This document shows positions 39,601 through 48,600 of a stretch of DNA of 64,000 nucleotides, in pieces. Each line of letters opens with the position of its first letter. Positions within the stretch are counted from its first letter, which is position 1. The stretch spans positions 51,915,078 to 51,979,077 of the forward strand of contig NC_134841.1 in the NCBI RefSeq assembly GCF_965363235.1. Direction: 5' to 3'. The position numbers and the translations under genes were made by a program. The stretch comes from Mytilus galloprovincialis (taxonomy: Eukaryota; Mollusca; Bivalvia; Mytilida; Mytilidae). Below the pieces are notes generated by a model, which worked only from the letters and a program-made list of their open reading frames with translations, was not told where the DNA came from and did not search any database.

Positions 39601-42600
39601 CAATTTCAAAACATCAGTTTCGTCTCGCTTCATTCGAGTTTTTCTGAGTTCTTTCTGGGCGGATGTTTCAGGGTTAACCATTCCTGCCAAATCTCGACAT
39701 TTTAAGGATATTGAAGCTCTTTCATGTGTATAATTTTAGCAACCAACGTTTATCAGAATCTTTATTTAAACTGAAACCAACAAAAAAACATTTGTTTTTG
39801 TATCTCTAAGAAACCTAAGAAAGTAAAAAGTATTGCCAAATACTACAACTGACTATTTGACGTTCGTTCAAAGCGATGTTTGTCGATTGGATGACTTAAC
39901 AATCTTAAGTCAATCACTACATAGCTAAAACACAAAATGTTATCAAGCACACCTTTATTGAGTTCGATAGAGTGCATCTTTTCTGAACGAAAAAAAATCA
40001 CCTTAATTTGTAATTTTTTCATAAATATTTCGTTACACATTCACTTTATATAATAATTTGTCTCACAAAAACATCATAAACCGACAATTAAATGTTTGTT
40101 TTCAGTTGCAAATTGATAATGCTTATGAGTGAATACATTGTACATGTTGTATACTGAATCAACGACGGTAATTTGATGATTTCCGGTATTTCACGAGTAT
40201 TTGCACGCACATATATTTTATTAAATAATTCATATTTTAAACGATATATAAATACTGCAAATGATTTAAACATAATGATTATGCATAATGCATAATGATT
40301 AATTCTCAAGTTTAATTAACTAAAACGTGTAATTGTATAACGAATTTCTTTATGAAAGGAGAAAATATGCCTTAATTTGAACCCAAAAAATCGGATTGTT
40401 TGTAATGTAAAAAAAACATTTTTTTTTAAACAAAAAATCTTCCGAGTTAAATTTAATATGATAGTTTTGTATCTGTTTTAGTTGTTTAAACCTATACTTT
40501 ATTTTTTTTAATCGCTTTATATTAAAAATTTTAATTAAAAATTACTTAGTCGTGATTGCTAAATGAGGGAACCATTGGAAGGGACGTTTTTAATCCTCTT
40601 TTGGACACTTTTTTTTAGTCTAACACCTTGTATTTTATCAATAAGAAAATAAAGTTGAATTTTATCCAAGAAAATCGCGGTACCCTGGGGTGTAACACAA
40701 ATTCCTTAACTAGCGCGCTTTTGAGAACTAGCTGATGGACTAAGAAAACCAACATAAAGTCGATCGATACAATGTTGTTACTTTTTGTTAAAATATTTTT
40801 TTCTAAGCACCGCATCTCATACTTGGTCAATGATTAATGTGAGTGTGGTTTAGTTTATTTTGTTCTCTTCTATGCATAATTATGACTGATTGGTTTCGAA
40901 ACATAGCGAGTTTATTTCATTAATTAGGAGTTGTTTATTATGCCAATATTTTTATACTGAAAATTGCAGATAACAATTCTCATATTGGTGCTTTTGCCAA
41001 AGACCCCCTTTTTTCTCGATGGAAACAATTTCTATTTAAATTTTATTCCATATGTCATCTAGTTCCAATGGGAACAAACTGTGCCCCTCTACTTGCCGAC
41101 TTGTTTCTTTATTATTATGAGGCTGACTTCATGCAGGAACTTCTTAGGAAGAAAGATAAGAAGTTAGCAATATCCTTTAACTCTACTTTCTGCTATAAAG
41201 ATGACGTTCTTTCACTAAACAATTCAAAATTTGGTGACTATGTGGAACGCATTTATCCAATCGAATTGGAGATAAAGGATACTACAGATACAGTTAAGTC
41301 GGCTTCATATCTTGACTTACATCTAGAAATTAACAAAGAGGGTCGGTTGAAAACAAACTTTACCACAAAAGAGATGATTTCATCTTTCCAATTGTGAACT
41401 TTCCATTTCTAAGTAGCAGCATTCCAGCAGCACCTGCATATGGGGTATATATCTCCCAATTGATACGATATTCCCGTGCTTGCATTTCCTATCGTGATTT
41501 TCTTGATAGAGTGTTACTGCTCACAAGGAAGCTATTAAACCAAGAGTTCCAAATGGTGAAGTTGAAATCATCCCTTCGTAAATTTTACGGACGCCATCAC
41601 GAGTTGGTTGACCGTTATGGAATAACCGTTTCACAAATGATATCGGTTATGTTCCTTACGTCGTAACTACAATCCCCTTCCCTTTCATGAATGTGACCTA
41701 CCGAATTAGACTATTTACCGGATTTGTAATCACATAAGCAACACGACGGGTGCCAAATGTGGAGCAGGATCTGCTTACACTTCCGGAGCACCTGAGATCA
41801 CCCCTAGTTTTTGGTGGGGTTCGTGTTGTTTATTCTTTAGTTTTCTATGTTGTGTCATGTGTACTATTGTTTTTCTGTTTGTCTTTTTCATTTTTTGCCA
41901 TGGCGTTGTCAGTTTGTTTTAGATTATGAGTTTGACTGTCCCTTTGGTATCTTTCGTCCCTCTTTTACGCCTTATCAAGTTGCCATGCATGGCGATGTCA
42001 GTGTTAATTAGGGGTTTCTTTACTTGTGCGTCATGAGTGTTTCTTTGTGTCTGTAGACTCTTTTTTGAAAGACAGACCCAACGGACAATGCATTAAAAAA
42101 AAATATATGATTTATCATTTTATATCAATCAACGAAGAATCAGGGGAGGGTCTAAAACGCAGAAATGGAAAACGCGGAAATGAAAAATGAGTGTATAATA
42201 ACTAATATATTTGGAACCGCTAAAGCTTAATTCATAAATAAAACTGATTTTGAAAGCTAATATAATAGTCTATAAGATAGAATTAAAAAATATATATATT
42301 TGAATATGCTTTTTAACCGAAAAGTTGACCGGAAGGCTTTCTTAGTGCGACTCTGGCAACACATTTTTGAACATTAAAACTTAAATTCACGAAAAAGCAT
42401 ATAACCCGGTCAAAGTCTGTAAATTGACTCTTAAAGACATGTAAATGACAAATAATATGATATAAAGAAAAAAATAAATATATTGCTATAAAAGGACAAA
42501 AAGTTGACTGGAAGACCCCTTGTACACAAATATTGAAGTGAAATTTTCAACTTTGAATTAAAATTCATAAAAATTTATAAAGCCCGGTCAAAGTCTGTAA

Positions 42601-45600
42601 ATTGACTCTGAAAGACATTTAAATGACAAATAATATGTTATAAAGAAAAAAATAAATGTATTACTATAAAAGGGCAAAAAGTTGACCTGAAGACCCCCTT
42701 GTACACAAATATTGAAGTGAAATTTTCAACTTTGAATTAAAATTCACAAAAATATAAAAAGCCCGGTCAAAGTCTGTCAATTGACTCTTAAAGACATTTA
42801 AATGACAAATAATATGATATAAAGAAAAAATAAATATATTACTATAAAAGGACAAAAAGTTGACCGGAAGTCACCCTTGTATACAAATGATGAAGTGAAA
42901 TTTTCACTTTGATACTAAAATTCACAAAAATATGAAATGCCCGGTCAAAATCGAGAACGTAAACACGCTAAATGGCATGAAGTTTTGTATAAATTCTTGA
43001 AAGATAAAATTCCTAGAATAGATAAAAAACAAATTCCTTTTGTCATTGACCAAGAACCAGGTTTAAAAAAGGCTATTAGAGATACTTTTCCAAATTGTCC
43101 GATTATGTTTTGTTGGAATCATATAGAAGAAGATTTTAAATTCTGGTTAAAGGGCAAAGTGGATAGTGATAATATTAAAATTTATATAGATCATTTGAAT
43201 CAGATGTGGCATTCTGATAATGAAGAAGAATTTTTGGGGAAAAAAAATGAAATTAACATCAAGATGGACTCCCGTAGTTTTAGAACATTTCAATAAACAT
43301 ATATCTCCGGCAATTCAAAATCACTCTGGTAAATGGTTAATTGAAAAATATCCCGACATGTTAGATCCTTATTCTGGAATAACAAACATTCTTTCCGAAA
43401 GTATAAATGCCGTTTTAAAAAGAGAAAATGATTGGAAAGAGCTACCAGTAGATTTACTGGCTTTGGGTTTTATTACATACAAAATTTTGAGAATTATGAA
43501 ATGTTACGTGGACGTTCTGTTTTAGGAAATTATCATTTGAAAAAATTGTTTAGTAGAGCATTTATTTCACCATCAGATGTTATATTTCCAAAAAGAATTG
43601 TAAGTACTGATGAAGTAATTGAATACTTAAAAAACGACAAGCCACTTTTTCAGTCTAATTCTTTCCAATCTGACACTGATCCTTTAGGCAATTTAAATTC
43701 ACAGGAAATCATAAAACAAACAAACTCTGATGAGAACACTAGTACTAATCAGGTCAAATAAGAAAATAATGAGGTAATAGCTAATCAACAACCTGTCATA
43801 AATTACCCGACAATTAGTACTGATAGCAGTCAACAAAGTTTGGCACGGTTTATTGTTGACAATATTTTAATTACTTTGGTTCCACAACAAGGTGCGTTTA
43901 TTGTAAATGGCAGGAAAGGGAAATACTGTGTAACTCTTTTTCCAAAAGAAATATGTCAATGTGAATCCTCATCTACTTGTTTTCATATTTTGGCTGCAAA
44001 AATGAGTATAGGGTTAGAGCCAACAAAAACAGATAACGTCGTTAGTTTAAGGGCACTTTAAAACAAATAGCAAGAAAAAAATTGACAAAAAATCAGGAAG
44101 AAAACAACCAAGAGAAAATGATTATGGAATTGAATTCGAACCTGCGCCAGATTCACAATTTTCTATAAATACTCCTTCAAAGCAAAAATTGATGACAACA
44201 CCTTCAACGAATGGTAGCACAAAACCTAATAAAACGCCTAAAATATCAACCGAATTTTCAACTCCTAAATCAAAAAAAAACTTGAACTAAGTGTAATCGA
44301 AGAATATGCAGAGGAAACAAATATTATAAAAAAAATCGACCGAAATTATTAATAAATCACTCCCTGTGAAAAAAAGAAAGATAGACGATATCAACTTAGA
44401 TGAAATGGAAACCCCCACTAAAAAAACAAAAACTCTTTCAGATCTCCCGTGGATAGGTTATTGCAGTCAACAGCACAAACAAAATATTTTAAATAATCAT
44501 TATCTATGTTCTGATATCATTATTTCAACGCAAAATCTTCTGAAAATTGAGTTTCCAGAAATAAATGGGTTCCAGGAAACAACTTTAGCGCCTGTTAAGG
44601 TAAATGGTAAATGGGTAAGTAAAACCGGTTTTCAATCACAAGAGTCACCAAGTGTACAAATACACCATTATGGTAATGCTCATTGGGTTTCGTCTCTTCA
44701 AACTAGAGATGGAAACATCTATCTTCTAGACAGCTTATCATTAAATTTAACAACTTCATTAGAATATCAATTAACGCAAATCTACGGTAAAGACAAGAAA
44801 AAATTAATAATAAGAATACCCGATGTCCAAAAACAACAACACAGCATAGATTGTGGACTTTTTGCAATTGCAAATGCTCTTGAATTTTGTCAATCTGGGA
44901 TTAAAGGCGGTACTCATATCACATACGAGCAAAAAAATATGAGAGAACATTTAATTCATTGTCTTGAAAATGGTAAATCAGGGCTATTCTTATGACCAAC
45001 ACTAGGTTTCTTTATATGTCATGATCTATAGAAGTAGTTAAAAACGTATTGTTCCAACTTCTCTTGTATCCAAGAAACCTTTTAAGTAGATTTTGCGCAC
45101 TAGTTTTCAAAACTTGAGTTCATAGGCTAACAAGTTATTAAAGTTTGAAAATTGTATTAAGTGTTGTACTTTTATGGTTATAGGTCCTGCACAACTTCGG
45201 TTTGCGTTCATGTCAGAAAAAAATGAGCCGCGTCTTTACGGTCACAAGACAAACATTTCTTGTCATAACCAATACTTTCTTTACGTGTATAGACATTTGA
45301 TTAATAACCATTCATAATATAACAATGGGATTAAATTGTAATATAGATTACCGTCCTATGGTTCCTTCGTTAACATATAGTATTGGAGTGGGTCAAATAA
45401 CTTGTCGTAGAGAAAAACATACCGATTTCCTTAAATGCAACTTATGTTTATGCGCGAATAATATGACCGAATTGTATGATTATATATAAGTGTACCAAGC
45501 CAGGACCATGTAGTCTGAGTGTTGCCATCTAGACGTTGTTTGGTTATATCTGTCTTTGGGTTACTGTCTCATTGCCGTTTAATAACATCATCTTTTATCA

Positions 45601-48600
45601 TAACTCAAAACACATTTATGTTATGCTTGTGACGTGACTAACTTTCATGAATGTTGTTTGCGTAGACGATTGCCGATTTATTGAATGAAAAAAGAATGGA
45701 GAGCTATAACTATATAACTGGCTAATTCTTATATCAAAGATTCAAATTATGAAAAGAAAAAAGGACAAAAACCGACCAACAAATTAAAAAAAATAATAAT
45801 TTAAAATTTAAAACAAAAGACACGTTGTTAATTGTAACAACTAGTTAATGTATCAAAACTGAAACAAAATAGAGAATGGAAACAGAGAAGTTGTCAAAGG
45901 GACAGCAGCTTGTTATATATACGTTCATAAGAACGGGTTTTCCGAAAAATTTTAGAAAACTATATCCAACTTGATATGTTACACAGAGTCGGTTCTTGAT
46001 ATATTATCAATTTCTATGATAAAATCAGAAAATTTATTGTGTGTGTTTATAACATGAATTTAAGATTAAAAACACAATGTACAAGGTGCTGATTGCCAGA
46101 CCTCTATATTTAACCACACACGCTGGGATGGATTGATAACAATGTATGCTAGAGTTATCAGTCCTTAAAATAAATTTATTGCCAAGATTGGATTACCTCC
46201 CTTAAACCGGACTAATTCTTGGCAATGTAGCAAAATAACGTCAGCCAATCAGAAAACACGTTACATCCAGAATTAAATTATTTGATATTGATAAAACTTA
46301 TTTTGAATGGGTTTCATAGTTTATGAGTACTTAGTTAAAACTTGAGTAACGCATTTAACAAAATTAATTGGTTAGCAATAACCGGTCCCGTTACGTGCGT
46401 ACGTCGAGTTAGGTAGGTATGTCATTAAATTGATAATCTCTACCTGAACGTTATTTAATTTTATTAATGAGGTTATCTCTCATATAGTATATATATATAT
46501 ACATGTAGGATGAACAGTTCAAAAGAAAGTGTAGTTCATCTTCAATGTCTCCATTTTTGCAGCAAAGACAACTTTATATATATCTGTATTACCAAAGTCT
46601 ATATAAACTATAGGTATACAATTATATCAACATCAATAATACATACATAAACACAGACTATGTGACAGCAGAAGGTGTTGTAATGATAAACAAACATTAT
46701 TTTAACATTTTGGATCTAAGCTTAAAAATAAAGGCAACAGTAGTATACCGCTGTTCAAACTCATAAATCCATGGACAAAAAACAAAATCGGGGTAACAAA
46801 CTAAAACTGACGGAAACGCATAAATATAAGAGGAGAACAACGACACAACACTACGATGGTACAGTAACTAACACACATAGAAACGGACCAAGCATCAGAC
46901 AAAATCCCACGAGAATAACTAATATAACATCAAAACCAAATACATGAATTTGTGATAGACACGTCTTGTCGCAATGTCAATTTACACTCAAAAATAAGAG
47001 AAAACAAACGACGCAACGTTAAAACGTGTAACACACACAGAAACGAACTATAATATAACAATGGCCATATTCCTGACTTGGTACAGGACATTTTTAAAGG
47101 AAAAAATGGTGGGTTGAACCTGGTTTTGTGGCATGCCAAACCTCGCACTTTAATGGCAATGTTAAATATAACATAGAAATGACAACATAATATTACAGGA
47201 CTACAATACAAATAAATAGGAAAACGTATTAGACAAAGAGACACATGATTAATGAATAACAAAAAGCATCAGGTTTAAAATTTAATACGCCAAAAACGCG
47301 CCTCGTCCACACAAGACTCACCAGTGACGCCCAGATATAAAAGATCGAGAGCGAAAAAAAGTACAAAGTTGTACAGCACTGAAGATCAAAAGTTGAAAAA
47401 GGTTGTGTCAAATACGGCTAAGTTTGTATGCTTGGGATAAGAACATCCTAATTATTTAGAACAATTAATGCTATTGCAAACAGTAAATTTTATCAAATGA
47501 ATATAACAGATATACATAATGAAACTGAAGTATTAACTCATTACACAAAACAAACACGAATACATAATGAATGACCAACACAGAATAGACACACCCGACT
47601 CAGTCCAGGCCTCAACACAGTAAATAATGAAAATGACGTCACATACGACGGTGAAAAGGCATTAAAAATTACGTCACATACGATGGTGAAAAGGCATTAA
47701 AAATTTGAACATATGAAATTTCTGAAACAGCAGAAAAATTACGTCACATATGAAAAACTATATCTCAAAAGTAAGATAGAATTAGGATTGATTAAAGATT
47801 AAAATAGAACTAAATACTGATATTGCATTTAAACACAATGCATATTGCAATACTTATTAATAGTAGTTAACTATAATATGTATATGTGCAGATCTAATAT
47901 AAATTTACCTAAATTACACAATTCTTTTACATTATTAGTACTCATCAGTTTAATAAATTTGTACATCGACGTTTTTTCCAATAAAATGGCTTAATATAAA
48001 TTGTTCTAAAACCTTGAAAACGTGGACATTTGAGGATGAAATGAAACTCATCCTCTATATCATTTTTACAAAAAGTACATATTCTATTATTTCTTGTTAT
48101 ACCATAAAATCTTCCATTTTCTATAGCTAAGTTGTGGCTACTTAATCTTATTTTTGTTATACATTTTTTGTAAACATTTGGAATTGATTTGCATGAATAA
48201 AATTGCAGACAAAAATTATCTAACATATATTTATAATTAGAACATTTTGGAGACATATGCAACTGAGCATCAAGTTCTTGTTTTAGACAATCGTACAAAC
48301 GTTACTTTATGACAGCAAAATATACATCAGGAAAGTCACAAATAAGGTTTTGGCTATACCATACATCCCCTAAACCAATAAGAAAAAGTTCGTTCTTTAT
48401 AGAATACAACCAGTTACACTTATTATTTGGACATCTCTCTAATTCACAATATAAGTAGTTATAACAAGTTTTCAATATACAGTTTGAAGTATTTAGCAAT
48501 TTAAACCAATATTTGAAAATCTTACATTTTCTTGCGAAAATAAGAGGCAATCTACCTAGTCCTTGATATATCATAACATTGTTAGTAGACCACCTAACAC

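Follow-up and report, generated by a model that had tools for sequence, protein, structure and literature searches.

Mutator-like elements (MULEs) of plants that bear a ULP protease are said to have been described by Hoen in 2006 and by van Leeuwen in 2007, and to have been named Kaonashi and CUMULE. Some plant elements of this kind lack a transposase, the protease of Kaonashi has been proposed to act in trans, and we know of none with a CG-1 domain. Compared by description only, the Mytilus element characterized here is like Kaonashi and the melon CUMULE in combining a MULE with ULP1, but its host is an animal.

Mutator transposons encoding Ulp1 were reported from hydra, lancelet, Arabidopsis, maize, rice and melon in the passages on Ulp1 in Bao et al. 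(2010; PMC2836005), where the hydra and lancelet cases trace to Repbase Reports of 2008 and 2009. Thus, the pairing of MULE and Ulp1 was already known in animals, and the novelty that the original prediction had considered possible for an animal MULE with such a protease is lost to these precedents. The hydra and lancelet elements, like the Mytilus element, unite a MULE with Ulp1 within a single animal transposon; compared by description only, they differ in that CG-1, SGNH and sub-repeated terminal inverted repeats (TIRs) go unmentioned in the same passages. Ginger1 likewise has a DDE transposase with a C-terminal Ulp1, and Ginger1-9_HM has Ulp1 and PHD, the legend of Figure 1e in that article referring to aligned Ulp1 and PHD domains of Ginger1 and Mutator transposases. 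However, Ginger1 is described there with a Gypsy-like integrase and 4-bp CCGG-type duplications, whereas the Mytilus element has a MULE domain and duplications of 9–10 bp. Composite TIRs made of tandem repeats and 9 bp target duplications are also found in the Tm1 Mutator/Foldback elements of root-knot nematodes, but these have repeat units of about 14 bp and a Phantom-like transposase, and Ulp1 is absent from the main text of that article (PMC3169594).

For molluscs, a MULE survey from 2019 lists groups without a protease, and the words peptidase, C48 and ULP are absent from its main text (PMC6446971). A bivalve transposon paper gives 39 MULE consensus sequences with no mention of Ulp1, C48 or SGNH in the main text (PMC10294476), and Ulp1, C48, CG-1 and SWIM are absent from the main text of PMC13359780. 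A search of the open-access literature for a mollusc MULE transposon with C48 found nothing.

The window copy and the ends of the element

The window, i.e., the whole stretch of 64,000 nucleotides of Mytilus galloprovincialis DNA that was analysed, contains at 42144–44978 one frame-broken and truncated copy of a MULE (Table 1). The span had been given earlier as 42946..44995, but the element begins with its terminal repeat at 42144, and homology to a related copy at C13:36456976-36463544 (the C13:36.46 Mb copy) stops at 44978. The last codons of the 44330–44995 frame are therefore non-element sequence, and the PHD-like finger and the right terminal repeat have been lost from the window copy; neither a second element copy nor a right terminal repeat was found elsewhere in the window. 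The terminus GGGAGGGTCTAAAACG at the start of the window element was also present in related copies. Identities of the left terminal repeat of the window element to its two counterparts in the C13:36.46 Mb copy were 93.7% (left) and 94.1% (right, inverted), and the coding parts of the two copies were 95.4% identical over 1850 aligned bases. Between the points matching window 42952 and 43038, the C13:36.46 Mb copy contains about 2.5 kb and lacks 85 window bases; the loss of these 2.5 kb has removed from the window copy the region of CG-1 and of the first catalytic Asp. The window copy thus has no CG-1, SGNH or PHD-like part.

MULE, SWIM and C48 were originally predicted to lie in a single coding run. 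All three were found in this order, but the run contains roughly five frame changes (near 43230, 43470, 44060, 44275 and 44328) and a nonsense TAA at 43759–43761, and activity of the window copy is excluded. Other lesions are present in the C13:36.46 Mb copy, including a 67-bp gap removing the Cys region that the window retains. The complete catalytic set claimed for the window protease was borne out, with codons for His at 44681–44683, Asp at 44729–44731, Gln at 44834–44836 and Cys at 44852–44854, and the Pfam Peptidase_C48 match on 44330–44995 scored just above the cut-off (21.2 vs. 20.7 bits, E 2.9e-4). A structure predicted for the window protease by itself had a pLDDT of 31.7.

Window 42919–43296 matched positions 63–96 of 99 in the Pfam MULE profile, below the cut-off (20.3 vs. 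27.6 bits, E 7.9e-4), and the relative L066 showed 43.9% identity over 114 aa to the MULE part of the window in tblastn. Checked codons in this part specify an Asp (43048–43050) and a Glu (43397–43399), which we take to be the second catalytic Asp and the catalytic Glu of the MULE DDE domain. L066 itself scored below the MULE cut-off (20.9 vs. 27.6 bits), and L064 scored above the cut-off for Transposase_mut (24.2 vs. 21 bits) and under that for MULE (21.6 vs. 27.6 bits). The SWIM motif was uncalled by Pfam in the window, and in L064 it scored below the cut-off (16.9 vs. 19.6 bits, E 0.0046).

Table 1. Predicted parts of the window copy (window coordinates) and target duplications found at related copies
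Feature	Position	Strand	Remarks
Left terminal inverted repeat	42144..42952	+	about three tandem sub-repeats of ~178 bp inside, 42405–42949
MULE transposase domain, C-terminal part	42953..43525	+	partial Pfam match, genome relatives, tblastn
Region joining DDE domain and SWIM	43526..43950	+	ORF list; aligns with the C13:36.46 Mb copy
SWIM-type zinc motif region	43951..44060	+	CxCx5CxH at 43954–43986, read from the sequence
Basic low-complexity linker (KKSGRKQPR...)	44061..44420	+	frame changes within; L061 protein matches from residue 82
Ulp1/C48 cysteine protease domain	44421..44978	+	Pfam Peptidase_C48; broken off at 44978
Target duplication TTGTGCAAG	C13:36456976-36463544		
Target duplication CGAATTTGG(A)	L064		
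Target duplication TGCCAACTC	L062		~10 extra bases at right end
Target duplication GGTGAGGACC	L061		

Six copies with a pair of inverted repeats were found (C13:36.46 Mb, L060, L061, L062, L064 and L065). The terminal repeats of the C13:36.46 Mb copy are about 770 bp long and showed 94.8% identity over 784 aligned positions; identities between the two ends of the same copy were 94.9–99.3% in L061, 84.6–96.5% in L060, 88.8% in L062, 77% in L064 and 75% over 280 in L065. Target-site duplications of 8–11 bp are a hallmark of MULEs, and direct duplications of 9–10 bp flank four of the six copies; they were sought without success at L060 and L065, the ends of the latter being imprecisely placed. 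As a chance control, 1040 pairs of stretches of the same width were drawn at random, and 52 of them shared a 9-base match. With a MULE-type DDE domain, 9–10 bp duplications and long inverted repeats, the family belongs to the Mutator superfamily.

Upstream in the window, a reverse-transcriptase fragment was detected at 40924–41666 (+; RVT_1, E 0.019, below cut-off), and 41063–41856 aligned over 810 bp, with 90.5% identity, to DNA in the vicinity of the C13:36.46 Mb copy. There it lies on the other side of the element and outside the target duplication, and it was rejected as an element part and regarded as an unrelated repeat. Downstream, a 118-aa stretch at 47945–48301 (−) with a CxxC...HxxxxC tail resembles by eye the final part of a non-LTR retrotransposon protein, and 47630–47705 holds 2.2 copies of a tandem 35-bp unit with 95% matches.

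Linkage of transposase and protease across the genome

In the Mytilus assembly (1.385 Gb, 331 contigs, at least 14 of them chromosome-sized), the window protease gave 70 matches, its own included, at 48 places, although the weakest (24–33% identity) may be other genes and all family counts are lower bounds. The MULE part of the window gave 20 other matches at 18 places with 32–86% identity, including one at C13:25976029 (46%) inside an 877-aa open frame, and transposase queries found 61 places genome-wide. Pfam MULE gave at least 140 matches in the whole genome (150 of 324 candidates scored), most of which belong to other families than the Ulp1-bearing one.

At 17 of the 48 protease places, window counted, transposase or CG-1 sequence was located up to 10 kb upstream in the same orientation, two of them having it at distances of about 6 and 8 kb; with additional matches from a further search the count was 22/61. 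No alternative domain order or strand was found within 10 kb at the 48 places. At the 10 places that have both parts, with the window excluded and weak fragments pooled with good ones, identity to the window MULE increased with identity to the window protease (Spearman 0.73, p 0.016); C12:58.26 Mb departs from this trend (85% MULE and 59% protease identity) because of frame lesions. The protease was thus not found as an always independent gene, and differing distributions of the two parts, which would likewise speak against a common element, were not seen.

MULE, SWIM and C48 are most likely made as a single polyprotein, which is supported by the finding that every adjacent pair of domains shares an open frame in some copy: CG-1 and MULE in L066 (877 aa), the second Asp through SWIM in L065 (380 aa), the catalytic Glu, SWIM and linker in L067 (262 aa), and the linker, C48 and a PHD-like finger in L061 (435 aa) and L062 (392 aa). 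Joining neighbouring domain frames requires no intron, and SGNH, CG-1 and linker are joined in a 958-aa open frame in L078, from which the MULE part is absent with the frame preserved. That protease and transposase are instead separate genes in the same transposon seems improbable: the window frames are broken, a long basic linker separates SWIM from C48 and none of the copies read has an open frame spanning the whole element, in line with such an arrangement, yet SWIM shares an open frame with the linker in L064 (228 aa) and L067, the linker shares one with C48 in L061, L062 and L067 (250 aa), CG-1 is in frame with the linker in L078, and in L064 only one stop interrupts the reading frame that runs from SWIM and linker into C48. 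We give hardly any credence to a third arrangement, in which the protease would be an independent SENP-like host gene that lies beside a MULE fragment by chance or was captured once here. The identical order and strand at the 17 linked places argue against it, and while 31 of the 48 protease places have no upstream transposase by the two queries and MULE-less open protease frames exist in L060, L061 and L062, these very frames lie between terminal repeats, with exact 9–10 bp target duplications at two of the three MULE-less elements read. The linkage and the frames joined across copies therefore uphold the original view that MULE, SWIM and C48 are parts of one mobile element.

CG-1, SGNH and other modules of fuller copies

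To our knowledge, CG-1 has been described in CAMTA transcription factors alone, where it binds DNA and is accompanied by further domains. In L066, residues 430–539 matched Pfam CG-1 above the cut-off (27.6 vs. 23.5 bits), about 140 residues ahead of the MULE match (676–769). A genome scan with Pfam CG-1 gave 10 matches up to E 1, two of which, at C13:66.98 Mb, are by score presumed to be exons of the host CAMTA gene, and two weak ones on C5 are below the cut-off. The six remaining places are above the cut-off, one only together with its frame neighbours, and all six adjoin transposase or C48 of the Ulp1-MULE family, the sixth having the protease at a distance of 7.9 kb. Eight chosen CG-1 stretches were aligned (alignment A1, omitting the frame-split L052, L078 with its two partial copies, and the repeat fetches L013, L017 and L075); at a threshold of E 0.01, Pfam CG-1 was the only family matched by each of the eight (best E 1.2e-8), although they are not eight independent tests because they were drawn from about three subfamilies. 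L078 scored 24.9 bits, the L064 stretch in a longer frame scored slightly below the cut-off (22.9 bits), and the best matches span nearly the whole profile (7–115 of 116).

The element CG-1 is thus shared with CAMTA by Pfam but is joined to a transposase, which CAMTA lacks, and direct similarity to the host protein is weak: hhalign of the element CG-1 against a 70-residue portion of what is presumed to be the host CAMTA gave a probability of 3.3% (E 0.013, 25% identity, 65 columns), and tblastn of the L066 CG-1 against the presumed host CAMTA exons gave no match. Pfam reported no other CAMTA domains in the element proteins. No PDB chain was matched by the CG-1 profile, and a PDB match for the CG-1/MULE half (E 0.76) was dismissed as chance. 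Searches of the open-access literature yielded no transposase with CG-1; papers there on CG-1 and transposons concern, by title, CAMTA or plants, and a CG-1 N-terminus, with fused SGNH in some copies, looks new for an animal Ulp1-MULE.

A GDSL/SGNH hydrolase domain was detected by Pfam ahead of CG-1 or the protease in L066 (E 1.5e-12) and L060 (E 3.8e-10). Close SGNH relatives (at least 44% identity) gave 12 matches, L066 included, at 11 places, and at eight of these, according to a comparison of coordinate lists, C48, CG-1 or MULE of the Ulp1-MULE family lies no more than 10 kb away in the same orientation. The places without linked family sequence were C3:92.77 Mb, C10:53.43 Mb and C4:21.05 Mb, the last having a C48 match 10 kb off on the opposite strand. 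Within the 8 kb read, no C48 was seen near L066. In L060 (2232–4559), NADAR (E 1.3e-20), C48 and the PHD-like finger share one 776-aa frame of a TIR element without MULE, NADAR being either a captured host domain or else an element module. The finger is termed PHD-like as it scored below the Pfam cut-off (18.2 vs. 24 bits).

Repeats were also observed within two of the long frames. The 958-aa frame of L078 (110–2983) holds a duplicated CG-1-linker unit and serine-rich repeats, and the 877-aa frame of L066 (4359–6989, −) has long RARVVSPS-type repeats ahead of CG-1 and MULE.

Constraint on the protease and a possible mode of action

L061 scored 40.3 bits with Pfam C48, and its best solved structure by sequence was yeast Ulp1 (E 7e-4). 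Both the window and L061 combine the His-Asp-Gln-Cys set with the profile match and are predicted members of peptidase family C48. The four residues were kept in six of seven aligned protease copies (the window and six others); in L063 (C12:78.63 Mb) Tyr replaces the catalytic His. Between subfamilies, pS was saturated (0.71–0.88) but pN was 0.27–0.40, in the protease as well as in the CG-1/MULE part, which points to purifying selection. For recent pairs, which include partly pseudogene copies, dN/dS was 0.39, 0.53 and 0.67 for the protease (three pairs) and 0.16–0.34 for CG-1/MULE (four pairs), which suggests weaker recent constraint on the protease. By these substitution rates the constraint on the protease appears old and clear, yet does not exceed that on the transposase.

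Four of the 31 MULE-less protease places (L060, L061, L062 and L077) were closely examined. In L062, comparison to its relative L064 showed that a deletion removed the transposase, and no MULE match was listed at L061 or L077 in the Pfam or transposase searches. Such transposase-less elements might be present selected units, whose protease would act in trans and help relatives evade SUMO-dependent silencing. Five protease matches lie in frames of at least 390 aa (776, 504, 439, 435 and 392 aa), none of them with a listed upstream transposase match in 10 kb, the three of them that were read (L060, L061 and L062) have terminal repeats without MULE, and L061 and L077 are near-identical (98.6% over 1775 bp) at two places. 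We nevertheless find this account doubtful, as the protease match is split between frames at the place of the 504-aa frame, the 5′ part of the frame is absent from L077, the recent protease pairs have the dN/dS values given above, and the open frames may be young deletions, the outer repeats of L061 being 99.3% identical.

The reading that we favour, with a probability of roughly 85%, is that the window holds a dead, internally deleted and 3′-truncated Mutator copy, and that its fuller relatives are cut-and-paste elements of about 6.4–6.6 kb with sub-repeated TIRs (~180-bp units) and one protein consisting of SGNH (in some), CG-1, MULE DDE, SWIM, basic linker, Ulp1/C48 and PHD-like parts. In such an element, CG-1, together with SWIM, would bind the terminal sub-repeats and bring the DDE domain to the ends, which it would cut and paste, leaving the 9–10 bp duplications. 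The protease may act on SUMO, a similar modifier or conceivably ubiquitin, removing it from the transposase itself or from chromatin and repair proteins of the host near the element, which might aid repair or lower silencing; alternatively, it may trim the polyprotein. The PHD-like finger could tether the protein to chromatin, and relatives may supply the transposase that moves elements which have lost their own but keep the protease frame open. Bao et al. (2010; PMC2836005) had already suggested that such proteases take part in transposition and repair. The presence of Ulp1 in MULEs of plants, hydra, lancelet and a bivalve, as well as in Ginger1, argues that SUMO or ubiquitin control matters for transposition.

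We consider the chances evenly balanced for a wider proposal, in which CG-1 is the N-terminal DNA-binding domain of an animal SGNH - CG-1 - MULE - SWIM - Ulp1 - PHD-like polyprotein, CAMTA may descend from a transposon or have donated CG-1 to one, and the protease is disseminated as a helper by copies without a transposase. Transcription factors related to MULEs are known in FAR1/FHY3. If CG-1 does reside on a transposase, the DNA-binding domain of a transcription factor would have a mobile relative, and the origin of CAMTA would become testable by genome comparison.
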